The translations under genes were made by a program, and so were the position numbers. Positions 14,998 through 60,553 of a stretch of 64,000 nt of DNA are shown here, one piece after another (the stretch's first letter is position 1; every line of letters begins with the position of its first letter). The notes under the pieces are model-generated. The model saw only the letters and a program-made list of their open reading frames with translations. It made no database searches and was not told where the DNA came from. The DNA lies in NCBI GenBank assembly GCA_022841665.1, contig JALHRB010000003.1, positions 124,001 to 188,000 of the forward strand, in the 5' to 3' direction. Source of the DNA: Pseudolabrys sp. (GTDB lineage: Bacteria > Pseudomonadota > Alphaproteobacteria > Rhizobiales > Xanthobacteraceae).

Positions 14998-15440
14998 TTG
15001 GTCCCCCCGCTTGCGTTGGAACGCTCCCTCCCCCGCTTGCGGGGGAGGGTTGGGGAGGGGGCTGGCTCGACTGCGGTGGCAATCATTTCGAAAACGCCAG
15101 ATCGATTTGTCATCACGTCGTAGTTATTGAATCGAAGCACACCGAAACCTTTACTCTGCAGGATCGCAGTACAGCGATCGTCGCGCTTGAGCTGTTCAGG
15201 CTCAAAGTGCTGACCGCCGTCGATTTCGACGATCAATCTCGCCGCGTGGCAAAGGAAGTCTACGATATAGGGGCCTACCGGGACCTGCCGCCTGAAACTG
15301 GCACCATTCAAGCGATGTGCGCGCAGCCCGCTCCAAACGATGTTCTCGGCGTCAGTCGAGTCTCGACGGAGAGCCTGTGCGCGGCCCAAGCTCGCTCGGG
15401 TCGCTCGCCAAACAGGAGGTTTGCGTGACTGCAGCGTCAT
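14994..15440 (-). CDS. DUF559 (Vsr/restriction-endonuclease-like) small nuclease inserted in the pheS-pheT operon
   Basis: This 148-residue protein belongs to DUF559, which has the PD-(D/E)xK/Vsr-like fold. Visible motifs are [41 protein letters not shown] with the likely catalytic acids D61, E72 and D74, and [17 protein letters not shown]. No function is firmly established; a DNA strand-cleaving role is inferred from the fold. Residues 127-139 (around [12 protein letters not shown]) are encoded by an intergenic palindrome. The other inverted copy lies 10 bp upstream of the start. The stop overlaps the pheT start. Confidence 0.88.
15024..15062 (+). repeat. Inverted terminal copy, family D (left end of DUF559 unit)
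   Basis: This 39-bp G/C palindrome contains CCCTCCCCCGCTTGCGGGGG followed by AGGGTTGGGGAGGGGGC. Its reverse complement matches the copy at 15451-15488 at 36 of 38 positions by eye. It lies inside the 3' end of the DUF559 reading frame. Confidence 0.85.
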
Positions 15441-15450
15441 CGCTCGGTCT

Positions 15451-15488
15451 GCCCCCTCCCTAACCCTCCCCCGCAGGCGGGGGAGGGA
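15451..15488 (-). repeat. Inverted terminal copy, family D (right end of DUF559 unit)
   Basis: This copy reads GCCCCCTCCCTAACCCTCCC then CCGCAGGCGGGGGAGGGA, inverted relative to the copy at 15024-15062. Together they bracket about 465 bp carrying only the DUF559 gene, between pheS and pheT. Confidence 0.85.
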
Positions 15489-15528
15489 ACAGGCTGTGCC
15501 TGTGCCGTTGCTTTGTCCTGCCGCGCAA

Positions 15529-16635
15529 TCATGGGCTCAGGCCCCCGGCGAGCGTCGGGAAGTCGAGCGGACGGAAGCCGTAATGATTGAGCCAGCGCAC
15601 GTCGGCCTCGAAGAAGGCGCGCAGGTCGTGCATGCCGTATTTCAGCATGGCGATGCGGTCGATCCCCATGCCCCAGGCGAAGCCTTGGTACTCATCGGGA
15701 TCGTAGCCGCAGTTGCGCAGCACGTTCGGATGCACCATGCCGCAGCCCAGAATCTCCAGCCAGTCTTCGCCCTCGCCGAAGCGGATCTCGTCCTTGCCGC
15801 GGCGGCACTGGATGTCGACTTCGAGCGACGGCTCGGTGAAGGGGAAGAACGACGGGCGGAAACGCATGTTGACGTTGTCCACCTCGAAGAAGGCCTTGCA
15901 GGATTCCTGCAATATCCATTTCAGGTGGCCGAGATGCGAGCCCTTGTCGATGACCAGGCCCTCGACCTGGTGAAACATCGGCGTGTGCGTCTGGTCCGAG
16001 TCGCTGCGATAGGTGCGGCCGGGGCAGATGACGCGGATCGGCGGCTTTTGGCCCAGCATCGTGCGCACCTGTACCGGTGAGGTGTGCGTGCGCAGCAGCA
16101 GGCGCGAGCCGCCTGCCCCCGGCTCCGACCGGGGGTCGGCCTTCTGCGGGAAGTAGAACGTGTCGTGCATGTCCCGGGCCGGGTGACCTTCCGGGAAATT
16201 CAGCTTGGTGAAGTTGTAGTCGTCGGTCTCGATGTCGGGACCTTCCGCCACCGCAAAGCCCATGTCGGCGAAGATGGCGGTGAGCTCGTCGATCACCTGG
16301 CTGATCGGATGAATACGGCCGGTCTCGGCCGGCGGCTCGCGCACGGGCAGGGTGACGTCGACGGTCTCGCCGGCGAGGCGCGCATCGAGCGCGGAAGCGG
16401 CCAGTTCGTCCTTGCGGGCGGCGATGGCCGCGCCGAGCTTGTCCTTGAGGCCGTTGATCGCCGGCCCTTGCACCTTGCGCTCGTCCGGCGTGAGCGCGCC
16501 GAGCGTCTTCAGGAGCGCGGTGACGGAGCCGTTCTTGCCGAGAGCCGAGACGCGCACGGCTTCCAGCGCCGCCTCGTCCTTGGCCGAGGCGACGCCGTCA
16601 AGCAGGTCTTTTTCCAGTTGCGCGATGTCGGTCAT
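15529..16635 (-). CDS. pheS: Phenylalanine-tRNA ligase alpha subunit
   Basis: PheS is the catalytic alpha subunit of phenylalanyl-tRNA synthetase. The 368-residue protein has an N-terminal coiled-coil arm (about 1-90). Class II motifs follow: [19 protein letters not shown] with [13 protein letters not shown], motif 2 around [25 protein letters not shown], and motif 3 [15 protein letters not shown] chose the ATG at 16635 over the TTG one codon upstream. pheT follows after the DUF559 insertion; rplT lies upstream in the same direction. Confidence 0.98.
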
Positions 16636-16650
16636 CAAAAGCCCCCGACG

Positions 16651-16767
16651 TCATCGTCCGCCCCCGCCTGCGCGGGGGCAGGCCCTAGCGGACGATCCAG
16701 TAACCCCCGCATACGAGATTACGTCAGGCCGGTGGTTACTGGATGCCCGCTTTCGCGGGCATGACAG
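16651..16767. repeat. Composite palindromic repeat, family A
   Basis: This element between rplT and pheS has a left hairpin CCCCCGCCTGCGCGGGGG, then GATCCAGTAACC, a variable centre of about 25 bp, GGTTACTGGATGCCCGC, a right hairpin CCCGCTTTCGCGGG and a terminal CATGAC. The outer halves are inverted relative to each other. It lies within the rpmI-rplT-pheST transcription unit. Confidence 0.8.
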
Positions 16768-16774
16768 TTAGTGA

Positions 16775-17134
16775 TTACGCCGGCAGCGCGGCCTTGGCCT
16801 TTTCCACGATCGCGGCGAAGGCCGCCGGCTCGTGGATCGCCAAGTCGGACAGCACCTTGCGGTCGACCACCAGACCCGACTTGGCCAGCCCGTCGATGAA
16901 CTTCGAGTAGTTGAGGCCGAACGGACGGACGGCGGCGTTCAGGCGCTGGATCCACAAAGCGCGGAACGTGCGCTTGCGCCGCTTGCGGTCGCGGAAGGCG
17001 TACTGGCCGGCCTTCTCCACCGCCTGCTTGGCGATGCGGATCGTGTTCTTGCGACGGCCGTAATAACCCTTGGCGGCCTTGTAGACTTTCTTGTGCTTGG
17101 CGTGGGACGTGACGCCACGTTTGACGCGGGCCAT
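16775..17134 (-). CDS. rplT: 50S ribosomal protein L20
   Basis: L20 binds 23S rRNA early in large-subunit assembly. The 119-residue protein opens with [19 protein letters not shown] and contains [13 protein letters not shown] and [20 protein letters not shown], the invariant core of the family. It follows rpmI by 69 bp in the usual rpmI-rplT order. In some bacteria L20 represses its own operon through an mRNA leader, but I see no such structure here. Confidence 0.99.
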
Positions 17135-17203
17135 GGCAAATCTCCTAGAGCTGATCTTGCAAACGGTTTGGACGGGACAGCCGCTTGCGCGGCTTCAATA
17201 CGA

Positions 17204-17404
17204 TCAGCCGTTGGGCAGAAAGTATTTCTTGATGTTGTCGCCGTCGGACTTGAACAACACCGCAGTGCCGCGATGTTCGCGGATCGTCTTGGTGGTCCGC
17301 TTGATCATGCCGTGGCGTTTGCCGGACTGCTGGTATTTCACCTTGCCCTGGGCCGTGATCTTGAAGCGCTTTTTAGCGCCCGACTTGGTCTTCAATTTGG
17401 GCAT
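17204..17404 (-). CDS. rpmI: 50S ribosomal protein L35
   Basis: L35 is a small basic large-subunit protein. The 66-residue product begins [20 protein letters not shown] and includes [10 protein letters not shown], both family signatures. The ATG at 17404 gives the normal length, preceded by AGGAG; the longer frame to 17467 adds a non-conserved extension. infC, usually directly upstream, is here separated by an oppositely oriented gene. The 249 bp upstream must therefore hold the promoter. Confidence 0.98.
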
Positions 17405-17653
17405 TTTGCTCTCCTGGAACGGCATTGCGGACATCGCCCGCGCGGCCGTAAATAGGCTCAAGGCCAAAGCCTCAAGCAGGTGCTCGGGATTGAGCGGGTA
17501 TCGCCGCCACGGCAGCCCTTTCAGCCGGGCGGCGAGAGGGCGGCGTTATGGCAGAGCCGAACGGGCCATGCAACCCGGCAGCGGGGGTCGGGCGTTAACG
17601 GGCGCCCGGCGCAGGACTGGGCCGGTTCCAGAGGCCAAAAAGGAGCGATTTCC

Positions 17654-18028
17654 ATGCGAAACGCCATCGTCGCCGCCGTAGCCGGCACCATCCTGGCCGC
17701 CGGGGTCGGCCTGCCGCGCCTGGCGGCGGCTGCCGCCCAGCATGATGGGCCGTGGACGGTCCTAATCATCACCGAGAAGGGAACCTGCGACCGAGCCTAC
17801 CGCTACAACGTGCGGGTGAATGGCGGCCGCATCGCCTATGACGGCGATTCGTCGGCCAAGGTCAACGGCACCGTGGCCGCCAACGGCGCGGTCAGGGTCA
17901 ATATCTCGCTTGGCGAGAAGAGCGCCAACGGCACCGGCCGCCTCGCCGGCAACAATGGCACCGGCCGCTGGCAGGGCGTCGGCGGCAACGACAGCTGCGG
18001 CGGCCGCTGGGAAGCCGAGCGGCGCTAG
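17654..18028 (+). CDS. Small secreted protein of unknown function
   Basis: This 124-residue protein starts at an ATG preceded by AGGAG (17641-17645). It has a signal peptide of about 30 residues (MRNAIVAAVAGTILAAGVGL then PRLAAAAA). The mature part begins HDGPWTVLIITEKGTCDRAYRY and contains two conserved-looking Cys residues (GTCD and DSCGG) that could form a disulfide. The second half is Gly/Asn-rich (NGTGRLAGNNGTGRW). Similar short proteins are common in rhizobia, without assigned role. It stands alone on the plus strand inside an otherwise leftward translation cluster. Confidence 0.8.
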   Translation: MRNAIVAAVAGTILAAGVGLPRLAAAAAQHDGPWTVLIITEKGTCDRAYRYNVRVNGGRIAYDGDSSAKVNGTVAANGAVRVNISLGEKSANGTGRLAGNNGTGRWQGVGGNDSCGGRWEAERR

Positions 18029-18033
18029 CCAAA

Positions 18034-18060
18034 CAAAAACGCCGCCCTCATGGGCGGCGT
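18034..18060 (-). terminator. Rho-independent terminator of infC
   Basis: On the minus strand an 8-bp stem ACGCCGCC/GGCGGCGT with a short loop is followed by TTTTTG. It lies 23 bp past the infC stop. In the opposite direction no T-run follows, so it serves infC. Confidence 0.85.
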
Positions 18061-18082
18061 CGTTGAATTCTTTCGGAGGCGG

Positions 18083-18622
18083 TCAGCGCGGCGCCAGCAG
18101 CATCACCATCTGGCGGCCTTCGAATCTCGGCTCGGATTCGACCTTCGACATCGTCGCGGTGTCTTCTTTCACGCGCTGGAGCAACTTGTAGCCAAGCTCC
18201 TGGTGCGCCATCTCGCGGCCGCGGAAGCGCAACGTAATCTTGACCTTGTCGCCCTCCTCGAAGAAACGCTTCATCGAGCGCATCTTCACGTCGTAGTCGT
18301 GATCGTCGATCATCGGGCGGAGCTTGATCTCCTTGATCTCGACGACTTTCTGTTTTTTGCGGGCTTCGGCCGCCTTCTTCTGCGCCTGGAATTTGTACTT
18401 GCCGTAATCCAGGATCTTGCAGACGGGCGGGGTGGAGTTCGGGGCGATCTCGACGAGATCCAGCCCGGCGCTCTGCGCCATATCCAGCGCGGCTTGGATC
18501 GGGGTGGGGCCATGGTTGTGGCCGGTGGCATCGATCAGCTGTACCTCGCGGACGCGGATCTCCTCGTTTATGCGCGGGCCGTCTTTCTGGGCGGGCAGCG
18601 CGGACTTCATCGGACGACGAAT
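18083..18622 (-). CDS. infC: Translation initiation factor IF-3, ATT start codon
   Basis: IF-3 keeps ribosomal subunits apart and checks start codons. The protein of 179 residues begins [22 protein letters not shown] and contains the N-domain [20 protein letters not shown] and the C-domain [17 protein letters not shown] place the start at ATT (18622-18620), preceded by AGAGGAG with an 8-base gap. The rare ATT start is known for infC and allows IF-3 to repress its own translation. The next in-frame ATG, four codons later, lacks a ribosome binding site. Confidence 0.96.
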
Positions 18623-18775
18623 GGTTCTTGCTCCTCTGCTGTTGCAACGACCGCCGGGGCGCTCGCGCGGCCCTGCGGTGGGTGAGAGATTGGTACAAAC
18701 GGCGAATAAGTCAACGCGGTTCCGGGCCTCGGTTACGGGAAACCCCGCAAAACGCGTCAAATTATTCAAATCGTT

Positions 18776-20050
18776 CTAGTTTTGCCGCGCTGCGCGCGGC
18801 GCCCGGCCGGTCACCTCGGCGTAGAGGCGCAACGTCTGCTCGGCGACGGTGGCATTGTCGAAATGACCGAGCACCCAGTCGCGGCCGCGTGCGCCCATGG
18901 CGTTGCGCGTGGGTTCCGGGATGGAGAACAGCCGCAGCAACGCCGCCGCCAGCGCCGCGTCTTCGCCTGCATGAAAGCGCAGGCCGGCGACCCGCCCCTC
19001 CGGCACCGACGGTGCGGTAAGGACGACGTCGGGACCGGCGGCCAGCTCGGACACGACGACCGGCCGCGCCATCGCCTGCGCCTCGAGAATCGCGCGCTGC
19101 ACGCCCTCCGGCTGGATGGCCGCCGATACCACCACCGCGGCGGCCGTGTAGGCGGCCGGCATGTCGGAGACGGGCGCCGCCATGCGCACCACGTCCATGG
19201 TGGATGTCGACAGCGCCAGGTCCCACAATTCGCCGGTGTAATGCGTGCGGCCGCGGTCCTCGCCGACGAAGACGCAGAGAAAATCCTTCAGCCCCAATTC
19301 CTTCAGCCGCTTGGCCGCATTGACCACGATGTGATGGCCCTTGCGGCGCAGGATGCGGCCGACGATGAGGATCACCTTGGTGTCGCGCCGCACGCCCCAG
19401 GCGCGGCGCATCGCCTCGACGCGCTCGTCCGACACGCGCGACGGATTGAAGCGCGCGAGATCGATGCTGCACGGCACGACGGCGATCTTGTCCCACGGCG
19501 TGCCGTAGCGGTCGTTGACCAGCTGAGCCAGCTGTTCGCTCACTGCCACGACGCGGTCGCCCCGCGCCATCACGCTGTTGTACAGCCGCTTCAAGACGTT
19601 CTGCTCGCGGAAGCCCTTGTACCAGCTGGTGACGAAGGGAAGCCCGGCGAACCGCGCGGCGGCGAAGGCGCTCCAGGCGCCGGCGCGGCCGAGCGCGTGA
19701 ATGACGTTGCATTGGCGTTCGCGCGCGATGCGCCGCAGGATCACGGCGTTGCGCAGGAGCACGATTGGGTTGTTGCTGGAGACGTCGAGCGGCACGAAGT
19801 CGCCGCCGGAGGCGGTGACGTCCGCTGCCAGGCGGCCGGCGCGCGAGACGACGGTGGCGCGATGGCCGGCGCCATGCAGGATGCGCGTCAATTCGACTGC
19901 GCCGGCATCGGCCGCGCCGCCGTCGAGACTCGGCGCGACGATCAGGACGCGGATGGCGTCGGCCCCATCGCGCCGCCGCGCCGAGATCGCGTTATAGGAT
20001 GGAGCCGCCCTCGGGTCGTCCGGCATACCTGAAACGGGCAAACTCGACAT
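18776..20050 (-). CDS. GT4-family glycosyltransferase
   Basis: This glycosyltransferase of about 424 residues has the GT-B fold. The N-domain has RVLIVAPSLDGGAADAGAVE, the C-domain strand is ILIVGRILRRKGHHIVVNA, and the donor-binding region is EGVQRAILEAQAMARPVV, in place of the usual EGFGxxxxEAMA. A family GT4 enzyme would transfer a sugar from a nucleotide donor to a lipid or polysaccharide precursor. The acceptor is unknown. It is clearly related to the adjacent upstream gene, with 90 bp between them, suggesting tandem duplication and an operon. Confidence 0.87.
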   Translation of the reverse strand: MSSLPVSGMPDDPRAAPSYNAISARRRDGADAIRVLIVAPSLDGGAADAGAVELTRILHGAGHRATVVSRAGRLAADVTASGGDFVPLDVSSNNPIVLLRNAVILRRIARERQCNVIHALGRAGAWSAFAAARFAGLPFVTSWYKGFREQNVLKRLYNSVMARGDRVVAVSEQLAQLVNDRYGTPWDKIAVVPCSIDLARFNPSRVSDERVEAMRRAWGVRRDTKVILIVGRILRRKGHHIVVNAAKRLKELGLKDFLCVFVGEDRGRTHYTGELWDLALSTSTMDVVRMAAPVSDMPAAYTAAAVVVSAAIQPEGVQRAILEAQAMARPVVVSELAAGPDVVLTAPSVPEGRVAGLRFHAGEDAALAAALLRLFSIPEPTRNAMGARGRDWVLGHFDNATVAEQTLRLYAEVTGRAPRAARQN

Positions 20051-20140
20051 GACGTTACGGCCTTGAACGGGCGGCGCGGGCTTTCAGGTTCGAAGCGCGG
20101 CGCGCTCAACCGCGCTGCCGGCGTCGCTGTGCGAGGCGCG

Positions 20141-21418
20141 TCAACGGTCGCGCGCCAGGAGCGACGTATAGACCCCGCGGATGGCTTCGGCAACGCTGGC
20201 CGGCGAAAAGGCGAATTCGGCGAACTGGCGCGCGCGCGCGCCCAGCGCCTCATAGGCGGTGCGGTTCAGCGCCAGCGCGGCGTTAACCGCCGCGGCGAGC
20301 TCGCCGACATTGCCCGGCCGCGCCAGCCAGCCGGTGCGCAGTTCCTCGCGCATGCGCGGCGGCGCCAGCATGTTTTCCGGCAGCATGCCGACCGTGGTGG
20401 TGACCACGGGGCGTCCCACGGCTTGCGCTTCCGCCACCGCGCGGCCCGACAAAGGCGGCTGCAAGGCCGGCACCACGACGACGTCGGCGGCGGCGATCGC
20501 CGCCGGCATGTCGGGGCAATGGCCGATGAAACGGCATAGCGTGTCGATGCCGTGCAGGCGGGCGCGGCGGCGCAAGGCACGCGCATAGCGCGGATGCGTG
20601 CGATCGTCGCCGGCGAACACGAAGGCGATGTTGCGGCTGCCGCCGGCGAGGATGAGCCGCGCGGCATCGACCATGCTCATCTGCCCATTCCAGGGCGCGG
20701 CGCGTCCGGCGACGAGCACGATGCGGATGTGCGGGAGAATGCCCCAGACGCGGCGCATCTGCGCGATGCGGTCGGAGCTGATCGCGGCGGGATTGAAGCT
20801 CGCGGTGTCGACCGCGCGCGGGATCACGGTGATGCGGTCGGCGGCAATGCGATAGCGGTCGATCATCGCGCGCGAGACGTAACTCGACGGCGCGATCACG
20901 CGGTCGCCGCGCGCCAGCGCGCCGCGGAACAGCGTGCCCGGCCAGGTGTCGGCGGCGAGCCGGTCGGGAAACGAGGTGACCAGGAACACCGGCTGCTTCT
21001 TGGTCGCTTTCAGCGCGCTCCAGGCGGCGCCCGCGCTCTGCGCGTGGATGATGTCGATGCGCTCGCCGGCGATCAGCTCGGCCAATGTGTGCGCGTTGCG
21101 GCCGATGCGCAGCGGGCTGTCGTTCGCCATCGGCAGCCATTCGCCGCCGATGGCGCGCAATTCGCCGACCAGCGGCCCGCCGTCGCCGGCGATGATCGCG
21201 CGCGCCCCCGCTTGTAGCAACGTGAGCGCGATGTCGACCGCGGCATGGCCGGCGGGATCCTCGCGCAGCGCCGGCACGATTTGCAGGATGGTGGCGCCGG
21301 CGAGCGAGCGCGGGCGGCCGTCGATGGACGTCACGGCCCCCTTGCGCTGAGGCCCGCCTTGCGGCGACAAGGACCGGTCGTCGCTAACAAGTCTCGCCAA
21401 TCTGCCAGCAGCGCCCAT
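20141..21418 (-). CDS. GT4-family glycosyltransferase, second of a tandem pair
   Basis: This is a glycosyltransferase of about 425 residues. The N-domain begins ATILQIVPALREDPAGHAAV, the C-domain strand is IVLVAGRAAPWNGQMSMVDA and the donor site is LSGRAVAEAQAVGRPVV. Blocks such as MRRVWGI match MRRAWGV in the neighbour. The start at MGAAGRLARLV (21418) is my choice; the frame remains open to 21565. That ATG overlaps the ATG of the divergent hydrolase gene on the other strand. Role inferred: envelope polysaccharide or lipid glycosylation. Confidence 0.85.
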   Translation of the reverse strand: MGAAGRLARLVSDDRSLSPQGGPQRKGAVTSIDGRPRSLAGATILQIVPALREDPAGHAAVDIALTLLQAGARAIIAGDGGPLVGELRAIGGEWLPMANDSPLRIGRNAHTLAELIAGERIDIIHAQSAGAAWSALKATKKQPVFLVTSFPDRLAADTWPGTLFRGALARGDRVIAPSSYVSRAMIDRYRIAADRITVIPRAVDTASFNPAAISSDRIAQMRRVWGILPHIRIVLVAGRAAPWNGQMSMVDAARLILAGGSRNIAFVFAGDDRTHPRYARALRRRARLHGIDTLCRFIGHCPDMPAAIAAADVVVVPALQPPLSGRAVAEAQAVGRPVVTTTVGMLPENMLAPPRMREELRTGWLARPGNVGELAAAVNAALALNRTAYEALGARARQFAEFAFSPASVAEAIRGVYTSLLARDR

Positions 21419-22211
21419 GAGCGAATCCCGCCTGACGTCCCTGACCGTCGAATCACCTCCGCCTTCCCGGACCATCGCCGTGCGCGTGCGCGAGGGCAAG
21501 AGCGAAGCGGGCGCCCCCGGCCTGTTCTGGCTGGGCGGGTTCAAGTCGGACATGACGGGCACCAAGGCGGCGGCTCTGGATGTCTGGGCGGAGCAGCAAG
21601 GCCGCGCGTACGTGCGTTTCGACTATTCCGGCCATGGCGAATCGGGCGGCGACTTTACCGACGGCACCATCGGAAGCTGGCTGGCCGACAGCCTCGCCGT
21701 CTACACCGCGTTCTGCAAAGGCCCGCAAGTGCTGGTCGGTTCCTCCATGGGCGGCTGGCTGGCGCTGCTGCTGGCGCGCGCGCTGCGCAAGCGCAAGGAC
21801 GCCGCGCCGCAAAATACGTCACTGGCCGGCATGGTGCTGATCGCGCCCGCGGTCGACTTCACCGAGGAGTTGATGTGGAAAGCGTTCCCCGACGCCATCA
21901 AGCGCGAGATCGAGCAAAACGGCTTCTGGCTGCGGCCGTCGGAATATTCGGAAAGCCCGTACCCGATCACGCGCAAGCTGATCGAGGAGGGCCGCGATCA
22001 TCTCATGCTCGGCGGGCTGATCGAGACCGGCTGTCCGGTGCACATTCTGCAAGGCGTGCAGGACCCGGACGTGCCCTGGCGGCACGCGCAGGAACTGGTG
22101 TCGCGCTTCTCGCGCGACGACGTGGTGCTGACGCTGATCAAGGACGGCGACCACCGGCTGTCGCGGCCGGAGGACATCGAGCGGCTCCTGGCGGCGGTGG
22201 CGGAGTTTTGA
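21417..22211 (+). CDS. Alpha/beta hydrolase
   Basis: This protein of 264 residues has the alpha/beta-hydrolase fold. The oxyanion region is FWLGGFKSDM, strand beta-4 is AYVRFDYSGHGESGG, the nucleophile elbow is VGSSMGGW (Ser110), an acid lies in GVQDPDVPW and the His in KDGDHRLS. This layout is close to the palmitoyl-thioesterase-like ABHD10 group, so a thioesterase or esterase is likely. There is no signal peptide. It ends before a family A repeat and converges on queG. Confidence 0.88.
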   Translation: MSESRLTSLTVESPPPSRTIAVRVREGKSEAGAPGLFWLGGFKSDMTGTKAAALDVWAEQQGRAYVRFDYSGHGESGGDFTDGTIGSWLADSLAVYTAFCKGPQVLVGSSMGGWLALLLARALRKRKDAAPQNTSLAGMVLIAPAVDFTEELMWKAFPDAIKREIEQNGFWLRPSEYSESPYPITRKLIEEGRDHLMLGGLIETGCPVHILQGVQDPDVPWRHAQELVSRFSRDDVVLTLIKDGDHRLSRPEDIERLLAAVAEF

Positions 22212-22219
22212 TTTTCCGC

Positions 22220-22318
22220 CGTCATGCCCGCGAAAGCGGGCATCCAGTACTCACCGCGTCCTCGTATCGTTACATAGACAGGGGCTACTGGATCACCCGC
22301 CTTCGCGGGTGATGACGT
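22220..22318. repeat. Composite palindromic repeat, family A
   Basis: The element fills the gap between convergent genes. It starts GTCATGCCCGCGAAAGCGGG with CATCCAGTACTC, has a centre of about 30 bp including CGTTACATAGACA, and then runs GGGGCTACTGGATCACCCGC with TTCGCGGGTGATGACG. Both halves are hairpins and the two are inverted relative to each other. Confidence 0.85.
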
Positions 22319-24119: not shown

Positions 24120-24304
24120 TATCGCCCGAGGAATGGAGCGGCGGGAATCAACGACCGCACTATAGGAAGCGGCAACGGCGGCGCAAATCGGGCGGAAAGC
24201 GATGCCTTTTTAAGTTGCCTGTGCGCAGCCTTTGCGCCACAAGCGCTCACCTTGCGCGAATCGCGCGCTGTTTGCAGCGCGTACCGTCTCCGGAGCCTAT
24301 CCGC

Positions 24305-25156: not shown

Positions 25157-25158
25157 GC

Positions 25159-25251: not shown

Positions 25252-25274
25252 CATGAATTTTGGCGGTTGTTAAG

Positions 25275-45076: not shown

Positions 45077-45082
45077 AGACTC

Positions 45083-45131
45083 GTGTCCCGGACAAGCGAG
45101 CGCTTGCCGCAAGCGCAGATCCGGGACCCAG
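45083..45131. repeat. Family B hairpin, left of the GIY-YIG gene
   Basis: The hairpin reads GTGTCCCGGACAAGCGAGCG, then CTTGCCGCAAGCGCAGATCC and GGGACCCAG. It lies between ihfB and the nuclease start. Confidence 0.75.
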
Positions 45132-45169
45132 GAGAAGCGGGCGAAGCGCCTTATTGACGATGGTCCGGC

Positions 45170-45457
45170 ATGAAGGACCAGTATTTTGTCTACATCCTTT
45201 GCAGCCAGCGCAATGGAACGCTGTACGTCGGCGTTACGAATGATTTGGCGCGACGTCTCGGTGAGCACAAAGCAAAGCTGGTTCCTGGTTTCACCCGGCA
45301 GTATGGCGTCGATCGACTCGTCCATGCCGAGGAATACGCGTCGGTTCTCGATGCGTGGGCGCGGGAGCGGACGCTGAAGCGGTGGCGCCGTGCCTGGAAG
45401 ATCGACCTCATCGAACGGGACAATCCGGACTGGAAGGATTTGTCGGATAGTCTCTGA
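45170..45457 (+). CDS. GIY-YIG nuclease family protein (UPF0213/YhbQ-like)
   Basis: This 95-residue protein consists of a single GIY-YIG domain. The two namesake motifs are YFVYIL (residues 5-10) and LYVGVT (18-23), the conserved Arg lies in DLARRLGEHK, and the metal-binding Glu in LDAWARERTLKRW. The family includes the catalytic domains of UvrC and homing endonucleases. Stand-alone members such as YhbQ have weak DNA endonuclease activity. It is flanked on both sides by family B repeats and interrupts the usual ihfB-lapA order. Confidence 0.9.
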   Translation: MKDQYFVYILCSQRNGTLYVGVTNDLARRLGEHKAKLVPGFTRQYGVDRLVHAEEYASVLDAWARERTLKRWRRAWKIDLIERDNPDWKDLSDSL

Positions 45458-45462: not shown

Positions 45463-45589
45463 CGTCCCGGCAGCGCGATGCGAAGTATTGCGCTGCAGAC
45501 CCGGGACCCAGATGCTAAGAATTGCGTTCGTCGATGGGTCCCGGCTCTGCGGTGCGGCACTTCGCGCCGCACCGCGTCCGGGACACGAG
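45463..45589. repeat. Family B double hairpin, right of the GIY-YIG gene
   Basis: The first hairpin (GTCCCGGCAGCGCGATGCG to GCGCTGCAGACCCGGGACCC) is followed by a 26-bp spacer and an inverted second hairpin (GGGTCCCGGCTCTGCGGTGC to CGTCCGGGACACGAG). The CGAGG at its very end provides the only Shine-Dalgarno-like bases before the next gene. Confidence 0.8.
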
Positions 45590-47954: not shown

Positions 47955-48059
47955 GTCATTCCGGGGCGCGAGCGGAGCGAGCGAACCCGGAATCCAGAAA
48001 AGAATGCAGTGGCTGTGTCTGGATTCCGGGTCCGCGCCTTCGGCGCGTCCCGGAATGAC
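47955..48059. repeat. Palindromic repeat, family C, inside the trp operon
   Basis: The left half GTCATTCCGGGGCGCGAGCG to GAACCCGGAATCCAGA and the right half TCTGGATTCCGGGTCCGCG to CGTCCCGGAATGAC are inverted. The element fills most of the 130-bp trpB-trpA gap; the trpA ribosome binding site (GGAGG) begins right after it. Confidence 0.85.
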
Positions 48060-51220: not shown

Positions 51221-51270
51221 GGGCGTCTCCCATCCCGCGCGGCTTTTCGGTTGCGGTGGTCGCGGGCTTT

Positions 51271-51288: not shown

Positions 51289-51295
51289 TATAATA

Positions 51296-53061: not shown

Positions 53062-53196
53062 AATTAACGCTACTATGACCGCGCGGCGTCAGCCGCGGGT
53101 GGATTTTGCGCGGCGGCTGGCTATATCCCGCCCGATTCCTGCGCTATAGCGGAAGCCGATTTGGCGGCGCGTCCGCCTGCTGAACGAAGGTTTGCC

Positions 53197-54087
53197 ATGA
53201 ACTGGATCTCCAACGTCGTCCGGCCCAAGATTCGCAGCTTCCTGCGCCGCGAGACGCCGGAAAACCTCTGGATCAAGTGCCCGGAGACCGGCCAGCTCGT
53301 CTTCTACAAGGACGTCGAGGCCAACCAGTTCGTCATCCCGTCGTCGAACTACCACATGCGTATCAGCGCGCCGCAGCGGCTGAAGAGCCTGTTCGACAAC
53401 GCCGAGTTCGAGGACATTGCGCTGCCCGAGGTGCAGATCGACCCGCTCAAGTTCCGCGACGAGCGCCGCTACGCCGACCGCCTCAAGGACGCGCGCACCA
53501 AGACCGGCTTGCAGGACGCGGTGAAGGTCGGCATCGGCCGGCTCGACGGCCTGATGGTCACCGTCGCCGTGCAGGATTTCGACTTCATGGGCGGTTCGCT
53601 CGGCATGGCCGCCGGCGAGGCGGTCATCACTGGGCTGGAAACGGCCGTGAAGCGGCAGACGCCCTTCATCATGTTCGCGGCCTCCGGCGGCGCGCGCATG
53701 CAGGAAGGCATCCTGTCGCTGATGCAGCTGCCGCGCACCACGGTGGGCGTGCAGATGCTGCGCGAGGCCAAGAAGCCCTACATCGTCGTGCTCACCAACC
53801 CGACCACCGGCGGCGTCACCGCGTCTTACGCGATGCTCGGCGACGTGCACATCGCGGAACCGGGCGCGCTCATCGGCTTTGCCGGCCCGCGCGTGATCGA
53901 GCAGACCATCCGCGAGAAATTGCCGGAAGGCTTCCAGCGCGCCGAATACCTGGCCGAGCACGGCATGGTCGATATGGTCGTGCATCGCCACAAGCTGCGC
54001 GCGACGCTGGCGGAACTCTGCCGCCTGCTGACCAAGGCGCCTGCCGCCGAAGCCCAGCAGCAATTGCCGGTGCCCGCGCACGCTTGA
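53197..54087 (+). CDS. accD: Acetyl-CoA carboxylase carboxyltransferase beta subunit
   Basis: AccD with AccA transfers CO2 from biotin to acetyl-CoA, the first step of fatty-acid synthesis. The 296-residue protein starts [16 protein letters not shown] and has [36 protein letters not shown] and [18 protein letters not shown]. The N-terminal zinc ribbon of E. coli AccD is reduced here to the single Cys in [13 protein letters not shown], which also occurs in rhizobial AccD. I use the ATG at 53197. Confidence 0.97.
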
Positions 54088-54098
54088 CTAACGCACAG

Positions 54099-54193
54099 CG
54101 TCATCATCCGCGAAAGCGGATGATCCAGTACTCCCGGTGTCCTATGATCGCGATGCCAATGGTTACTGGATGCCCGCTTTCGCGGGCATGACA
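54099..54193. repeat. Composite palindromic repeat, family A
   Basis: Between accD and folC lies CGTCATCATCCGCGAAAGCG with GATGATCCAGTACTCCC, a centre of about 25 bp and the inverted half GGTTACTGGATGCCCGC with TTTCGCGGGCATGACAG. Confidence 0.85.
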
Positions 54194-54204
54194 GGCAAAC
54201 ATAC

Positions 54205-55512
54205 ATGACCCCCGTCGATTCCATCCTCGCGCGGCTGACCGCGCTGCATCCCAAACGCATCGATCTGTCGCTCGATCGCGTGCAGCGCCTGCTGGCCGCG
54301 CTCGGCAATCCCGAGAAGAGGCTGCCGCCGGTGATCCACGTCGCCGGCACAAACGGCAAGGGTTCCACCGTCGCCTTCCTGCGCGCCATCCTGGAGGCGG
54401 CGGGCCTGCGCGTGCATGCCTACACCTCGCCGCATCTGGTGCGCTTCAACGAGCGCTTCCGCCTCGCTGGGGAATTGGTGAGCGACGCGAAGCTCGCCGC
54501 CGTGATGGAAGAGTGCGAGCGCGCCAATGACGGCCACGCCATCACCGTGTTCGAGATCACCACCGCCGCCGGCATGCTGCTGTTTGCGCGTCATCCCGCC
54601 GACGTGCTGCTGCTGGAAGTCGGCCTCGGCGGCCGGCTCGACGCGACCAACGTGGTGGACGACCCGCTCGCGACGATCATCACCCGAGTCTCCATCGACC
54701 ACATCGATTTCCTCGGCGACTCGCTGGAAAAGATCGCCGCCGAGAAGGCCGGCATCCTCAAGCGCAACGTGCCGGCGATCGTCGCCGCGCAGGCGCGCGA
54801 CGCTCTCGCCGTCATCGAGCGGCAGGCAGCGCGGCTGAATGCGCCCTTGAAAATCGCCGGCGAGGATTTCACCGCCACCGAAGAGCGCGGCCGCCTGGTC
54901 TATCAGGACGAGAACGGCCTGCTCGACCTGCCGGCGCCCAGGCTCTACGGCCGCCACCAGTTCGAGAATGCCGGGCTGGCGATTGCGGCGCTGCGCGCAA
55001 CCAGCCGGTTCAAAATTCCGCCCGCCGCCTTCGAGGCCGGGATGGTGAAGGCGGAATGGCCGGCGCGGCTGCACCGGCTCACGCAGGGCCAGTTGTGCGA
55101 CTTGGCACCTGCGGGCAGCGAAGTCTGGCTCGACGGCGGCCACAATCCGGACGGCGGCCGTGCGGTCGCCGCCGCGCTCGCCGATCTCGAGGAGCGCGTG
55201 TCGCGTCCGCTGGTGCTGATCGTCGGTATGCTGGCGAGCAAGGATTGCGCGGGCTTCCTCGCCAATTTCACTGGGCTCGCGCGGCGCATGATCGCGGTGC
55301 CGGTGCCGGGCGCGGAGAAGGGCCTCAGCGCCGAAGAGGTGGCCGATTGCGGACGGGGCATCGGGCTCTCCGCCACCAGCCGCGACAATCTGCGCGAGGC
55401 GCTAGAGGCCGCGCGCAAGCTGGAGCTCGATCCGCCGCCGCGCATTTTGATTACCGGTTCGCTGTACCTGGCCGGCGAGGTGCTGCGCGAGAACGGCACG
55501 GAGCCGGCGTAG
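54205..55512 (+). CDS. folC: Folylpolyglutamate/dihydrofolate synthase
   Basis: FolC makes dihydrofolate and adds glutamates to folates. The 435-residue Mur-ligase-type protein has the P-loop IHVAGTNGKGSTVAFLRAIL, YTSPHLVRFNERF, LLLEVGLGGRLDATNV and the C-terminal WLDGGHNPDGGRAV. The usual accD-folC order holds, although a repeat lies between them. Its stop codon abuts the stop of the convergent ligase gene. Confidence 0.96.
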   Translation: MTPVDSILARLTALHPKRIDLSLDRVQRLLAALGNPEKRLPPVIHVAGTNGKGSTVAFLRAILEAAGLRVHAYTSPHLVRFNERFRLAGELVSDAKLAAVMEECERANDGHAITVFEITTAAGMLLFARHPADVLLLEVGLGGRLDATNVVDDPLATIITRVSIDHIDFLGDSLEKIAAEKAGILKRNVPAIVAAQARDALAVIERQAARLNAPLKIAGEDFTATEERGRLVYQDENGLLDLPAPRLYGRHQFENAGLAIAALRATSRFKIPPAAFEAGMVKAEWPARLHRLTQGQLCDLAPAGSEVWLDGGHNPDGGRAVAAALADLEERVSRPLVLIVGMLASKDCAGFLANFTGLARRMIAVPVPGAEKGLSAEEVADCGRGIGLSATSRDNLREALEAARKLELDPPPRILITGSLYLAGEVLRENGTEPA

Positions 55513-56544
55513 CTACTTCAAGAGCTTCATCAGGTCCGATTTTTTCTGCGCGAGCTGGTCCATCGTGCATTGCTGCGGCGCCTTGTCGGGCCGCCAGCGC
55601 AGCAGCCGAGTGCCGTGGCGAAAGCGGCCGCCGCTGAAGTGGTCGTAGCAGACCTCGACGACGAGCTTGGGCTTGAGCGGCTGCCATTGCGCCGAACGCT
55701 TGGTCGACCAGCGGCTCGGCCCGCCGGGCTTGTCGCCGGTGAAGCCGGGCGGCGCGATCAGCTTTTCCAGTTTTTCGGTAAGAACCTTCTTTTCCTCGGT
55801 CTTGAGCGACGACGTGAAGCCGACATGGTCGAGCAGGCCTTCCTCATCGTAGAGCCCGAGCAGCAGCGAGCCGACAACCCGCTTGCCTTCGTTGTAACGA
55901 AAGCCGCCGACCACGCAGTCGGCCGTGCGGAAGTTCTTGATCTTCTGCATGCCATGACGGTTGCCGCTCTCGTAGCGAACGTCGCGGCGCTTGGCGATGA
56001 TGCCGTCGAGCGTCGCGCCCACCTGCTTGAGCCATTTATTGGCGTCGGCCAGCTTCGTGGTCGCTGGTGACAGCCGAACGATCTTGTTGCCCCGCAGATA
56101 TTTCCTGGCGAAGGCGTCGAGCCGTGTGCGGCGCTGAGGCAGAAACTCTTTGGTGAGTACCGCGCCGTTTTCGTCAAGCAACAGATCGAACACGATCAGC
56201 AGCGCCGGCGTCTCCTGTGAGAGCTTCCTCACTCGGCTCGCCGCCGGATGGATGCGCTGCAGCAGGGCATCGAAAGAAAAGGCGCAGCCCTCCGGCACCA
56301 CTATCTCGCCGTCGAGCACGAAGCGCTTGGCCTTCAGCGCGCCGAGCGCAGAGACTAGCTCGGGAAAGTAGCGCGTGAGCGACTGACCGGACTTCGATTG
56401 CAGCTCGACCTTACTTCCGTCGCGGAAGGCGAGGCAGCGGAAGCCGTCCCACTTGGGCTCGTATTGCCACTGTTTGCCCTCCGGGATCGTGTCCACGGAA
56501 AGGGCTTCCATCGGCGGGAAGGGGCTGCGCAAGGCGAGGGTCAT
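55513..56544 (-). CDS. ATP-dependent DNA ligase, LigC type
   Basis: This 343-residue stand-alone ligase has an adenylation domain with the nucleotide-binding Lys31 in YEPKWDGFRCLAF, FVLDGEIVVPEG, FDLLLDENGAVL, IIAKRRDVRYESG and KIKNFRTADCVVGGF. A C-terminal OB fold (from about residue 230, LLLGLYDEEGLLDHVGFTS) follows. It lacks the polymerase and phosphoesterase domains of LigD, which matches LigC, a back-up ligase in base-excision or Ku-dependent repair. No ku gene is in the window. Confidence 0.9.
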   Translation of the reverse strand: MTLALRSPFPPMEALSVDTIPEGKQWQYEPKWDGFRCLAFRDGSKVELQSKSGQSLTRYFPELVSALGALKAKRFVLDGEIVVPEGCAFSFDALLQRIHPAASRVRKLSQETPALLIVFDLLLDENGAVLTKEFLPQRRTRLDAFARKYLRGNKIVRLSPATTKLADANKWLKQVGATLDGIIAKRRDVRYESGNRHGMQKIKNFRTADCVVGGFRYNEGKRVVGSLLLGLYDEEGLLDHVGFTSSLKTEEKKVLTEKLEKLIAPPGFTGDKPGGPSRWSTKRSAQWQPLKPKLVVEVCYDHFSGGRFRHGTRLLRWRPDKAPQQCTMDQLAQKKSDLMKLLK

Positions 56545-56558
56545 CCCCTCCCTAACGC

Positions 56559-56583
56559 AAAACGGCCGGCTTTCGGCCGGCCG
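56559..56583 (-). terminator. Rho-independent terminator of trxA
   Basis: On the minus strand the stem CGGCCGGC/GCCGGCCG with loop CGAAA is followed by TTTTGC, 25 bp beyond the trxA stop. Confidence 0.88.
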
Positions 56584-56607
56584 CTTACGAAACTATTTGG
56601 CGCGTGC

Positions 56608-56928
56608 TCAGACGCCGGAGCTGATCCACTGCTGCAGCTTCTGCTTGGGCGCGGCGCCGACCTGGCGCGAGGCGATCTCGCCGTTCTTGAACATCATCAG
56701 CGTCGGGATCGACATGATGCCGTACTTGGCGGCCGTGTTCGGGTTCTCGTCGACGTTGAGCTTGACGATCTTGACCTTGTCGCCGAGCGCCCCGGCGATC
56801 TCTTCCAGCGCCGGCGCGATCATGCGGCAGGGGCCGCACCATTCGGCCCAGAAGTCCACGACGACCGGTTCGGCCGACTTCAAGACGTCCGCTTCAAAGG
56901 TTGCGTCCGACACTTTGCCGACGGCCAT
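56608..56928 (-). CDS. trxA: Thioredoxin 1
   Basis: Thioredoxin reduces disulfides of ribonucleotide reductase and other proteins. The 106-residue protein has the active site [20 protein letters not shown] (Cys31 and Cys34), the cis-Pro in [14 protein letters not shown] and the usual C-terminal helix. I start at [18 protein letters not shown]; the longer upstream frame is not conserved-looking. It follows addA by 91 bp on the same strand, as in other rhizobia. Confidence 0.97.
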
Positions 56929-57019
56929 GGGGGTACCTCGTGTTGTGCGTGATGGCGCGCGTGGCACCAAATTGGAGAAGGCGAACCTATGAACGCGATC
57001 CGGCAGCGTCAAGGCGCAG

Positions 57020-60000
57020 TCACGCGGGGGTGACTTGCGTCAGGGATAGGTCCAGCGCCTCTCCGGAAAGCTCCATCAAATCAGGGACTTCCGTCCAGAT
57101 GAGCGCGGCGCGCACGGCCTTCCCGGGATACAGCTTTTGCAATACGGCACGGTAAAGCGCGAGCTGGCGCACATAAGCCGCCGGCACGTCGGCGATTCGC
57201 CGCGGCGCCGGCCGGTTGGTCTTGAAATCGGCAATGAAAACCGTGCCTTCGGTGACGGTAAGACGGTCGATCTGGCCGGAGGCGCGCAGCGCGCGGCCGC
57301 CAATTTCGATCCGCCCGACGATCGGAACCTCGGCCCGGCTCGCGGGCCCGCAATACTCGTAGAAGCGCGGATCCTCGGTCACGAGCAGCACTTGCTCGGC
57401 AATCGTCGCGCGATCCTCGGCAGGCAGTTTCGCCCCGGCGCGGGCAAGATAGTCGGCGGCGGCCTGCGCGCGCCGCCCGGTCGGGATCGCGGCCAGCGAC
57501 TGCATCAGCCGGTGCACCAGCGACCCGCGCAGCAGCGCATCGCTCGCGCCGGCCGACGGCGCCGGGCGCGCGTCGTCCTCCTCGACGCTCGACGGCGCGA
57601 TGGTGCGCATCGCCGGCTGCTCGACCGGCGCGTCGCGCAACAGCCACGGCTGCAGGGACGGCACTGCGGCGGGCTTGGCCATTTCGCCGGCTTTGACCGG
57701 CGCGGGCTCGCCCTTGCGATAGCGCAGCACCTCGCCGTTGCCGTCCTCGGCGGGTTCGACCACGCAATGCGCGGCCAGGGCGTCGCTTACCAACTGGTAC
57801 CAGCACCCGTCCGGTATTTTCTTTTCGCCTTGCGCGCCGCAGACGACGAGCCGCTCGGCCGCGCGCGTCATCGCCACGTAAAGCAGCCGGCGGTATTCGT
57901 CGCGCGCTTCGCGCTCGGCGATCTGGCGCGCCAGCGACATGGCCTCCACGTCGTCCAGCTTGCGCTTGCTCCAGACCAGCGCGTCTTGTCCGAGCGCCAG
58001 CAGCTTGGGTGGATGCGCGCCTTTCGGATCGGTGGTGGTGTCGGCGAGGACGACGGTGTTGGCCTCCAGCCCCTTGGCGCCGTGCACGGTCATCACGCGC
58101 ACCTCGTCGCGATCCATCTCCATGTCGCGGCGCACTTCGCTCTGCGCCTTGCGCAGCCAGTCGACGAAGCCGTGCAGCGACGGCGTCTCGCGCGCCTCGT
58201 AGTCGAGCGCGAGGTTAAGGAACTCGTCGAGCGCGTCGTTCGCTTCCGGCCCGAGGCGAGCGAGCAGCTTGCGCCGCCCGCCGCGCGCGCCCAGCACGTG
58301 CGCGAAGAAGCCGAACGGCGTGCGCGTGCGGGCCGCCGTCGCCAGCTCGTCCAGCGCGCTGTCGGCGGCGGCGAAGTCCTTGTTGCCGCGCAGGGCGGCG
58401 CGCAGCGGGCCCTTGCGGTTCCAGGCGAGCGCGAAGAGTTGGTCTTCGCTCAAGCCGAACAGCGGGCTCTTGAGCACGCTCGCGAGCGCCAGGTCGTCGT
58501 CGGGCAGCAGCAGGCAATCGGCCATCGCCATCAGGTCCATCACCGCGATGTGCTCGGTCAGCACTAGGCGGTCGGCGCCGGCCACCGGCAGCCCGGCGTT
58601 CTTGAGCGCGCGGATGATCGCCTCGAACAGCGGCCCGCGCTGGCGCACCAGGACAAGGACCTCGCCGGCCTTGAGCCCTTCGGCGGTCCACTTCCTGACA
58701 TGCGCGGCGATGCGGCGGGCGAGCAGCACGCGCGGGCTCTCTTCGCTTTCGGTGTCGAAGGGCGCGTCCCAGCCCTCGATCTCGCGCTTGCCGGCGGGCG
58801 CGATCAGCGGCCACAGCTCGACCAGCCCTGGCGCTGCGTTGGGCAGGGCCTGGTGCTCGGGAACGCCGACGACGTCGGTGGTGATGCTCTCGTAGACCTC
58901 GCGCGCCTTGAACACCTGATCGACCGAGCCGAGCACGGCCGCGCCGGAACGGAACGAGCGGTGGAAGCGCAAATAGCGCCAGCCCAGTTCCGGCTTGTCG
59001 AATTGCCGCTCGAACAGCCGGCGCATCTCGTCGAAAGCGCGCGGCGCCGCGCCCTGAAAGGAGAAGATCGACTGCTTCTCGTCGCCGACCGCGAACACCG
59101 TGCGCTTGATGTCCGGCCGCGCGCCGCCGGGCATGAATTCCGAGGCGATGGTGGTGATGATCGACCATTGCTTGGGGCTGGTGTCCTGCGCCTCGTCGAC
59201 CAGCACGTGGTCGATGCCGAGGTCGAGCTTGTACAGCACCCAGGCGGCTGACGAGCGCGCGAATAGGTGAATCGTCTTGTCGATCAGGTCGTCGTAGTCG
59301 AGCAAAGCGCGCCGCTCTTTCTCCTTGCCGTAGCGCTTGATGACCTCCCAGGCGATGGTGACGAGGGCGCGCGTGCGCTCGCGGGCGCGCAGCGCGCGTT
59401 CGCGCGCGATCAGCGCGCAGACGCGGGCTTGCTCGTCCATCAGCCGCGCGAACCAGTCGGGATACGCGTCCGCGATTTTGCCGGTGACGATGTTTTTGCG
59501 CGGCTCCAGCTCGGCGGTGCAGAACACCTTCAGATAGTGTTCGATCCGCTCGCGACCGGCGGCGGCCCGCGCGGCCTCCAGCGCGGCGATCTGCTTTTTG
59601 TCGTTGGCCGAGCCGGCGGCGAGCACTTCGATCAGCGCCGGCCATTCGGCGGCCGGCAGCAGCGAATGGGAGAAATAGTCGGCCTCGACGCTCTCCAGCG
59701 TATCGTCCGGCGCGACGCCGAAGCTTGCGGACAGTTCATCGATCGCCGCGTCGACGTGGCCTGCGCGCGCGATCCAGGCTTCCAGCGCGTCGCGCTCGCG
59801 GATGGCGTCGCCGATCACCTCCTTGAAGGTCTGGTCGGCGGCGGCGACGATGGCCGTGGCGAGCGCGCGGCCGAGCGCGCTTTGCCGCTGCGCCGAGGCT
59901 TCCAGCAGCACCTCGAGCGTGAGGTCGTCGAGCAGCTTCCGGGTGGTCGCCTCGTCCAGCACGGTAAAGCGCGCGGCCACGTTGGCCTCGAACGGGAACT

Positions 60001-60409
60001 GATGCAGCAGCCGCGTGCAGAAAGCGTGGATGGTCTGCACCTTCAGGCCGCCCGGCGTCTCCAGCGCGGAGGCGAACAGCCGGCGCGCGCGCTCACGATC
60101 CTTCGCGCCGGGCGCCTTGCCCGTGGAGCGGCGGATGCGCTCGTCGAGCGCGTCGTCGTCGAGCGCCGTCCACTCGGCCAGCGTGCCGAACACGCGGTTG
60201 GCCATGTTGGCGGCGGCTGCCTTGGTGAAAGTGATGCAGAGGATCTTGGCCGGATCGCAGCCGCGCAGCAGCAGATTGATCACGCGCTGGGCCAGAACGT
60301 GCGTCTTGCCGGACCCGGCATTGGCGGAGACGAAAGCCGAGACATCCGGATCGGCGGCGCTGACCTGCACATTGAGCACGTCGGGCGGGATGGTGCGCAC
60401 GGCGCTCAT
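57020..60409 (-). CDS. addA: Double-strand break repair helicase-nuclease AddA
   Basis: AddA is the UvrD-like helicase and nuclease subunit that, with AddB, processes broken DNA ends for RecA. The protein of about 1129 residues has Walker [82 protein letters not shown] and [13 protein letters not shown]. The RecB-type nuclease core [20 protein letters not shown] ends the protein. The ATG at 60409 puts Walker A near residue 28. A repeat separates it from addB. Confidence 0.97.
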
Positions 60410-60417
60410 GGGAGGAT

Positions 60418-60553
60418 CTCGTGTCCCGGGCGCGGCGCAGCATGCAATGCTGCGACGCAGAACCGGGACCGTACCAAGCGACGCCGTGCATTTTGGCGGT
60501 CCCGGTTCTGCAGCGCACCGCGAAGGCGCGCTGCGCTGCGCCCGGGACACGAG
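60418..60553. repeat. Family B element with 13-bp inverted ends, no gene inside
   Basis: The element begins CTCGTGTCCCGGGCG and ends CGCCCGGGACACGAG, with two internal hairpins (GCAGCATGCAATGCTGC; GCGCACCGCGAAGGCGCGC). It lies between addB and addA. Apart from the last base of the 13, its termini equal those of the GIY-YIG unit at 45080-45589, so it looks like a gene-less relative. Confidence 0.85.

Follow-up and report, generated by a model that had tools for sequence, protein, structure and literature searches.

We analysed a 64,000-nucleotide stretch of the genome of Pseudolabrys sp. (assembly GCA_022841665.1, contig JALHRB010000003.1, positions 124,001 to 188,000; hereafter the window) and found that it carries gene-bearing copies of two unrelated repeat systems resembling REPINs. 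In the first, a DUF559 nuclease gene lies between pheS and pheT and is flanked by an inverted pair of triplex motifs (TM, formerly PIT); in the second, a small GIY-YIG nuclease gene lies between ihfB and lapA and is enclosed by repetitive extragenic palindromes (REPs) of the CGTC superfamily (Table 1). The names pheS, pheT, ihfB and lapA are assignments of the first reading of the sequence, and the gene order around both nuclease sites was maintained in the congeners that were read.

Nuclease genes and repeats in the window

A first-pass annotation of the window had placed both nuclease genes between inverted palindromes, and both placements were borne out. The DUF559 open reading frame (ORF) passed the PF04480 cut-off over positions 15069-15383, and its stop codon and the start of pheT share an ATGA overlap. 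The inverted repeats flanking the gene (15025-15062 and 15451-15488, 38 nt each, 388 nt apart) are 95% complementary, and the lower one sits within the ORF and encodes part of the protein C-terminus. In both copies two stem blocks enclose a loop and are followed by a linker of three bases and a purine tail mirroring the second stem block exactly, i.e., a pyrimidine block, a complementary purine block and a mirror purine block follow one another on one strand. This repeat, labelled family D in the first-pass annotation, is the TM/PIT intrastrand triplex motif that was reported in more than 260 genomes and linked to instability (Holder et al. 2015, Nucleic Acids Research, PMC4666352): the three-block triplex layout, the exact mirror third block and the TTA or TTG linkers are common to both, and inverted pairs are present in E. 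coli as well. The exact published consensus, TM_ECO, is absent from the window copies, in which the third block is one position off GGGNGAGGG; the same genome has four exact matches to the consensus elsewhere.

Around the GIY-YIG gene, CGTC-type arms were found by a script at 45083-45130 (plus strand) and 45535-45586 (minus strand), and the right flank is a complete CGTC doublet, the inner unit of which was recognised by eye. The gene-less element at 60418-60553, to which the first-pass annotation had ascribed kinship with these arms, is of their subtype, and its arm pairs with 45537-45589 at 79%. Its predicted fold is much more stable than those of shuffled versions (z = -10.9); it was missed by the script and is known from reading and folding. 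The script, a detector built around the features of CGTC REPs (5'-terminal TC(A/G)T or GTGTC and 3'-terminal CCA), returned 19 units in the window, namely six gene-less plus/minus pairs, the two GIY-YIG arms and five others, 14 of the 19 standing in plus-then-minus pairs. By eye, the short units of 25-28 nt fit a stem of 8-9 bp with a loop of 4-5 nt, the GTGTCCCGG and TCATTCCGG units being longer. The window units carry the hallmarks of CGTC REPs (a CGTC-like 5' tag, a stem, a CCA tail and inverted dimers), and the "family B" of the first-pass annotation is one subtype of this superfamily, a repeat different from TM/PIT. The same hallmarks, in Alphaproteobacteria, are given by Di Nocera et al. 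2013 (PMC3733652), from which our case differs in that GIY-YIG genes are framed by the repeats and in that some window stems and loops are longer than those of the families presented there.

Table 1 Nuclease genes and associated repeats in the window.
Feature	Position	Strand	Basis and remarks
DUF559 (Vsr-like PD-(D/E)XK) nuclease gene, predicted	14994..15440	-	PF04480 over cut-off; structural matches; invariant residues
TM/PIT repeat	15026..15062	+	CCCTCCCCC stem, GGGGGAGGG stem, TTG, GGGAGGGGG tail; tail faces DUF559 gene
Second TM/PIT repeat, inverted	15451..15487	-	TTA linker; tail faces DUF559 gene
GIY-YIG nuclease gene (putatively Ssn-like)	45170..45457	+	PF01541 above cut-off; 52% identity to Neisseria gonorrhoeae GIY-YIG protein
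Left CGTC REP arm (GTGTCCCGG...CCGGGACCCA)	45080..45132	+	CCA tail towards gene, tag outwards
Inner right CGTC unit, first half of complete doublet	about 45463..45512	+	By eye; partly repeat family D17
Outer CGTC REP arm on the right, inverted counterpart of left arm	45535..45589	-	Repeat search and CGTC script
Gene-less CGTC doublet, GIY-YIG-arm subtype, REPIN-like	60418..60553		Folding, repeat pairing
Gene-less CGTC pair (TCGTCCC... / TCATTCC...)	12522..12575		CGTC script
Gene-less CGTC doublet	16651..16764		CGTC script
Gene-less CGTC doublet	22222..22315		CGTC script
Gene-less CGTC doublet	47956..48058		CGTC script
Gene-less CGTC doublet	54101..54191		CGTC script
Gene-less CGTC doublet	63681..63790		CGTC script

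Each nuclease adjoins its own repeat superfamily

The DUF559 loci were taken from the genome of the window and its family (family set), from a public genome collection (named set, the best 80 of at least 551) and from a Pseudomonadota sample (phylum set, 29 loci). An inverted-repeat score of at least 20 across the gene was obtained for 52 of 74 family DUF559 loci and 21 of 38 GIY-YIG loci, compared with 1 of 6000 random segments and 2 of 379 ORFs of the own genome (none of the 125 small ORFs among them) and none of 141 segments offset from the DUF559 loci. The score was reached at 51 of the 78 named loci with usable flanks (0 of 140 offsets) and at 14 of 29 phylum loci. The enrichment near palindromes that the first-pass annotation had anticipated was present for both genes.

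When the repeats were typed, a TM-type hairpin was found within 250 bp of 170 of 178 DUF559 genes, on both sides of 138, the offset controls giving 13 and 1 of 336, respectively. By set, a TM adjoined 71/74 family, 70/75 named and 29/29 phylum loci (offsets 2/141, 8/137 and 3/58) and stood on both sides of 65, 57 and 16 (offsets 0, 0 and 1). The same detector placed a TM beside 1 of 38 GIY-YIG genes. CGTC units adjoined 17 of 38 GIY-YIG genes, 12 of them on both sides (offsets 1/74), and 1 of 178 DUF559 genes (offsets 10/336). Among 1500 random own-genome segments, TMs were seen on any side of 31 and on both sides of one, and CGTC units on any side of 77 and on both sides of one. The tails pointed towards the gene at 59 of the 65 two-sided family DUF559 loci, and at five loci (L296, L297, L298, L303 and L313) TM repeats, some of them complete doublets, stood on one side of the DUF559 gene only. 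Each nuclease type adjoins its own repeat superfamily and the systems hardly mix locally, which rules out a single mixed repeat-plus-nuclease system and disagrees with the first-pass view of both nucleases as one kind of system.

Filled and bare sites

In a search of 43 genomes of the genus, pheS was found in 40, and 30 pheS loci were examined, that of the own genome (G000) included. The pheS-pheT junction was readable in 23 loci and unreadable in the remaining seven: 18 were bare overlaps without repeat, three carried repeat-DUF559-repeat (G000, G155 and G144) and two carried another ORF. The gene and its repeats are jointly present or absent at this junction, and the empty sites that the first-pass annotation had proposed to look for in relatives do exist. 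On a pheS tree, in which 6 of 27 inner branches were well supported and changes may be gains or losses alike, DUF559 presence needed three changes among 23 scored genomes. The insert of G000 has ATGA on both sides, but ATGA also preserves both reading frames. Two congeners have a different insert of about 500 nt at pheS-pheT, with a membrane-protein-like ORF by eye, and a third has an ORF with a similar start (L153 of G146, L161 of G124 and L176 of G132), so the junction seems to be repeatedly insertion-tolerant.

Thirty ihfB-lapA loci from the 43 genomes, 29 of them readable, were inspected by eye. The GIY-YIG gene with its repeats was present in G000, G150 and G128; these three genomes stand apart on the pheS tree, requiring three changes among 21 scored. 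In G146, whose clade adjoins that of G000, a gene-less doublet of this type occupies the corresponding position, and of the other loci several have other CGTC doublets and some have none.

These sites bear on the alternative that DUF559 and GIY-YIG genes are homing-type invaders landing in pre-existing doublets that were spread by something else. The doublet of G146 speaks for this explanation, the 18 bare pheS-pheT junctions without repeat speak against it, and we regard it as unlikely.

Gene-less relatives of the framing repeats were sought in a 464-kb sample (12% of the own genome, window included), which contained 25 TM-type hairpins. Eight neighbouring TM pairs were 58-114 bp apart, one was 412 bp and one 1218 bp apart; the 412-bp pair, the only one with a spacing of 200-900 bp, encloses DUF559. 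The arms of all four stand-alone DUF559 genes of the genome have gene-less relatives in the sample, that of the window arms being a 23-nt match only. The arms of the seven framed GIY-YIG genes likewise have relatives there, apart from a single arm each in L007 and L009. As a separate observation, DUF559-TM units of several genera (L016, L017, L019, L020-L022, L026, L027, L034, L036 and L042) lie, by eye, in an apparent metF-metH gap, which looks like a recurrent or long-kept site of such units.

TM numbers follow DUF559 numbers

Across 119 genomes of the family, the count of the TM-core pattern correlated with that of DUF559 (Spearman 0.67), and the correlation persisted when 101 genomes of 29 genera were compared within their genera (r = 0.63, permutation p = 0.0005). 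The partial correlation with DUF559 given the GIY-YIG count (from a protein search) was 0.59, and that with GIY-YIG given DUF559 was 0.07. After correction for a reversed-pattern control and subtraction of two repeats per gene, gene-less TMs still followed DUF559, with a Spearman coefficient of 0.62 overall, r = 0.52 within genera (permutation p = 0.0002) and a partial correlation of 0.51 once the GIY-YIG and Y1 counts were taken into account. A mere passenger need not be followed by repeat number in this way, which is a further point against homing-type invaders. CGTC REPs were counted as canonical short units only, with a pattern one base shorter as a near-zero control; within genera GIY-YIG led (0.47, p = 0.001) over DUF559 (0.27, p = 0.05, or 0.04 in a second run).

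It may also be asked if a RAYT (Y1/HUH) transposase moves both repeats, as it moves GTAG REPs, with the nucleases as cargo. The doublet layout is REPIN-like, and other transposases were considered for CGTC REPs in the 2013 study (PMC3733652). A search for the Y1 transposase domain (PF01797, Y1_Tnp) was negative for the own genome and for the four sampled congeners and positive for 31 of 119 family genomes overall; the Y1 count given DUF559 had a partial correlation of 0.04 with TM; and each nuclease type stands beside one repeat family. A RAYT as the mover is disfavoured for the own genome by the missing Y1 match and this partial correlation, and we give the explanation almost no credence.

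Of 249 Pseudomonadota genomes, 50 contained the published TM consensus. A strong DUF559 match (E below 1e-20) was present in 36 of these 50 and in 35 of the 199 genomes without the consensus (odds ratio 12, p = 5e-13, with kinship ignored), and 1014 of 1203 TM copies fell in genomes with a strong DUF559.

The DUF559 protein

The predicted structure of the window DUF559 protein (mean pLDDT 82) matched the Neisseria gonorrhoeae structure 3hrl (E = 2e-7) and I-Bth0305I (E = 2e-4); the latter is a homing endonuclease and thereby a point in favour of the homing-type explanation; the match to Vsr was weaker (E = 0.02, ranked below some mitochondrial ribosome proteins). Residues D61, E72, D74 and H78 were invariant in 12 sequences found by a hidden Markov model and in 38 DUF559 sequences of the named scan, whose search pattern itself included the ExDGG motif. 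The Pfam match, the conserved catalytic residues and the predicted Vsr-like fold place DUF559 among the Vsr-like PD-(D/E)XK nucleases. Fold and catalytic residues would be common to Vsr, I-Bth0305I and DUF559, from which the window gene differs in standing alone between TM repeats. At another locus of the own genome (L005, G000:C29:36176-36481), a DUF559 domain is fused to the C-terminus of a putative TrmJ-type methyltransferase, its ExDGGQH motif is lost and no TM repeats are seen in the flanks read; it is possibly a domesticated copy.

The likeness to Vsr raises the further alternative that DUF559 proteins are host repair enzymes acting in very short patch (VSP) repair, as proposed for VsrA of Caulobacter, and that TMs are regulatory elements or terminators. 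VsrA contains a DUF559 domain, and scmA mutants require it for their SOS response (PMC12907096); the word palindrome is absent from that article. The weak fold match to Vsr agrees with such a role. Regulation would leave unexplained the matched two-sided inverted repeats, the up to 10 DUF559 matches per genome, the patchy presence within one genus and the correlation of TM copy number with DUF559. Earlier work cited by Holder et al. found PIT/TM to be without promoter or terminator activity (PMC4666352). Taken together, this makes the repair explanation very improbable.

Occurrence beyond the family

TM-framed DUF559 genes were found in Alpha-, Beta- and Gammaproteobacteria and also in contigs assigned to Planctomycetota, Chloroflexi, Omnitrophota and Gastranaerophilales, many of which are metagenome bins and possibly misplaced. 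In E. coli, ycjD is the annotated DUF559 gene (NC_000913.3, 1351407-1351760) and a TM lies at 1351205-1351239; by simple arithmetic (18 loci in 4.64 Mb) the chance of a TM this close is about 0.3%. This TM is copy number 9 of Holder et al. 2015 (PMC4666352). The ycjD region was covered to at least 80% in 3364 of 5426 E. coli genomes. Strains lacking ycjD were considered as clean empty sites and rejected, as three such strains carry an efflux operon beside sapF instead (L289-L291, compared with L288, NC_000913.3 1351039-1351828).

Four matches from a plasmid collection were read by eye. The DUF559 homologue of Neisseria gonorrhoeae (50% identity) lies between two TMs, TM-type repeats flank the gene on either side in Deinococcus psychrotolerans and Synechocystis, and in Photobacterium they are present on one side. 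The D. psychrotolerans gene (L324, between paaD and paaZ) stands within a near-perfect inverted repeat of about 55 nt that includes TM cores. DUF559 as plasmid or phage cargo was dismissed. Of 72,556 plasmid records 43 matched the domain, chromosome-sized entries among them, and of 50,697 phage records only 2 did; such rarity is expected of a chromosomal, REPIN-like element. Two records filed as plasmids (NZ_CP119142.1 and NZ_CP119140.1) are chromosome-sized N. gonorrhoeae sequences of 2.17 Mb.

Proposed mechanism

The association of each nuclease with its repeat is observed, and from it we infer that the nucleases spread the repeats in the following manner. The first-pass annotation had suggested that the nucleases may spread or maintain the palindromic repeats; the pairing is strongly supported by the enrichment, the within-genus correlation, the filled and bare sites and the gene-less relatives, and the spreading role is what the mechanism proposes. 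Neither vertical inheritance of the genes at these loci with unrelated or absent repeats nor a lack of enrichment was seen.

We consider it likely that the nucleases are dedicated enzymes of REPIN-like elements that have gene-bearing copies and propagate by cutting and repair. In the TM-DUF559 element, the gene would occupy the place of the spacer between two inverted TMs, where the short form has a short spacer; the CGTC-GIY-YIG element would be built likewise, from CGTC REPs and a GIY-YIG nuclease gene. At the replication fork, where single-stranded DNA is exposed, each nuclease may recognise the folded form of its own repeat, which in the case of TM would be a hairpin with a third strand, and cut it, after which host recombination would repair the break from another copy. 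Host recombination is invoked because both nuclease types are hydrolytic and unable to rejoin ends; covalent DNA intermediates are not known for PD-(D/E)XK and GIY-YIG nucleases, nor is the rejoining of DNA ends known for either fold. Such repair would convert gene-less doublets to gene-bearing ones, homogenise subtypes and occasionally seed a new intergenic site. The gene-less doublets would be non-autonomous followers, as REPINs are of RAYTs. Cutting and repair would explain why the gene stands in the doublet spacer, why the arms are alike within a unit and why gene-less copies are abundant. Somewhat less firmly, we favour the view that the TM/PIT repeats of hundreds of genomes are non-autonomous copies of phylum-spanning elements, the autonomous copies of which encode a DUF559 nuclease acting on the folded repeat.

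A number of observations weigh against this mechanism. Neither cleavage nor movement was observed, and cutting and repair does not by itself explain the first entry at bare sites such as pheS-pheT; the filled sites there extend beyond the repeats by tens of nucleotides that have no visible counterpart in the bare ones, and no target-site duplication or sharp element end was readable. The DUF559 and GIY-YIG locus sets were best-scoring or listed matches and are non-random, CGTC units were detected near only 17 of 38 GIY-YIG genes, and only 16 of 29 phylum loci had a TM on both sides. Among two-sided loci, the tails faced the gene at 30 of the 52 in the named set and at 8 of the 16 in the phylum set, most of the others being unclear by script; the TM beside ycjD points its tail away from the gene, the tails in Deinococcus and Synechocystis point outwards, and the two TMs of N. 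gonorrhoeae are directly oriented. Flanks of L005, L008 and L010, taken as controls, also gave 0-6 matches per side in the 464-kb sample, mostly below 30 nt and the longest of 60 nt at 85%. With respect to copy numbers, GIY-YIG tracked TM within genera too (r = 0.33, p = 0.015), and the CGTC count correlated overall equally with GIY-YIG and DUF559 (0.57 each; partials 0.38 and 0.39, respectively), leaving the systems unseparated by CGTC copy number. Finally, 14 of the 50 TM-bearing Pseudomonadota genomes had no strong DUF559, one of them with 71 copies, and TM-rich genomes without it were seen in the family set (G021 and G009) as well as in the Pseudomonadota sample (G209, G325, G366 and G396). 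Orphan repeats, a lost enzyme, an unassembled gene or another mover are candidate explanations; such genomes indicate that the repeats can persist alone or be moved otherwise.

Relation to known systems

In the study of Holder et al., the origin of TMs is left open, no activity giving genetic mobility is reported near TMs in E. coli and no mobility gene is given, in contrast to the dedicated nuclease proposed here; the words DUF and endonuclease are absent from the main text (PMC4666352). In the open-licence literature, no title or abstract start joined DUF559 to these repeats, and the link may have been published elsewhere. The DUF559-TM pairing appears to be undescribed, and here the first-pass remark that no established description of the pairing exists is upheld within the literature searched.

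The remark does not extend to the GIY-YIG half. The GIY-YIG homologue of N. gonorrhoeae, 52% identical to the window protein, lies among repeats of the CGTC/dRS3 type, and we take it to be Ssn, which was reportedly shown in 2025 to cut the single-stranded NTS repeats of Neisseria. Judging by its GIY-YIG domain and this homology, the window gene is putatively Ssn-like. The Ssn/NTS system likewise comprises a small GIY-YIG protein; no difference from it was established for the GIY-YIG half, which is probably already known, and the DUF559 half differs from it in both fold and repeat. Di Nocera et al. describe CGTC REPs as apparently having no transposase of their own and identify the Neisseria form with dRS3 (PMC3733652), and with reference to the first of these statements the GIY-YIG-CGTC pairing fills the gap of the dedicated enzyme. 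With RAYT/REPIN, both systems have in common inverted palindrome doublets with short spacers, present in tens to hundreds per genome, and a gene-bearing copy framed by the same repeats; they differ in that RAYT/REPIN combines GTAG REPs with Y1/HUH transposases, and the elements described here combine TM or CGTC repeats with PD-(D/E)XK or GIY-YIG nucleases.

The general kind, i.e., a repeat together with a dedicated nuclease gene that it frames, is known from RAYT/REPIN and from Ssn/NTS, and DUF559-TM appears to be a new pairing within it. This pairing may explain the spread of putatively triplex-forming hairpin repeats, offers a possible role for the widespread, little-characterised DUF559 nucleases and, by supplying a dedicated enzyme, makes the question of TM origin directly testable. 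If the proposed mechanism is true, REPIN-like elements would have arisen with several unrelated nuclease folds: RAYT-GTAG, GIY-YIG-CGTC and DUF559-TM would be three such folds independently driving doublets of inverted hairpins, and together they would form a convergent class of structure-guided selfish elements.

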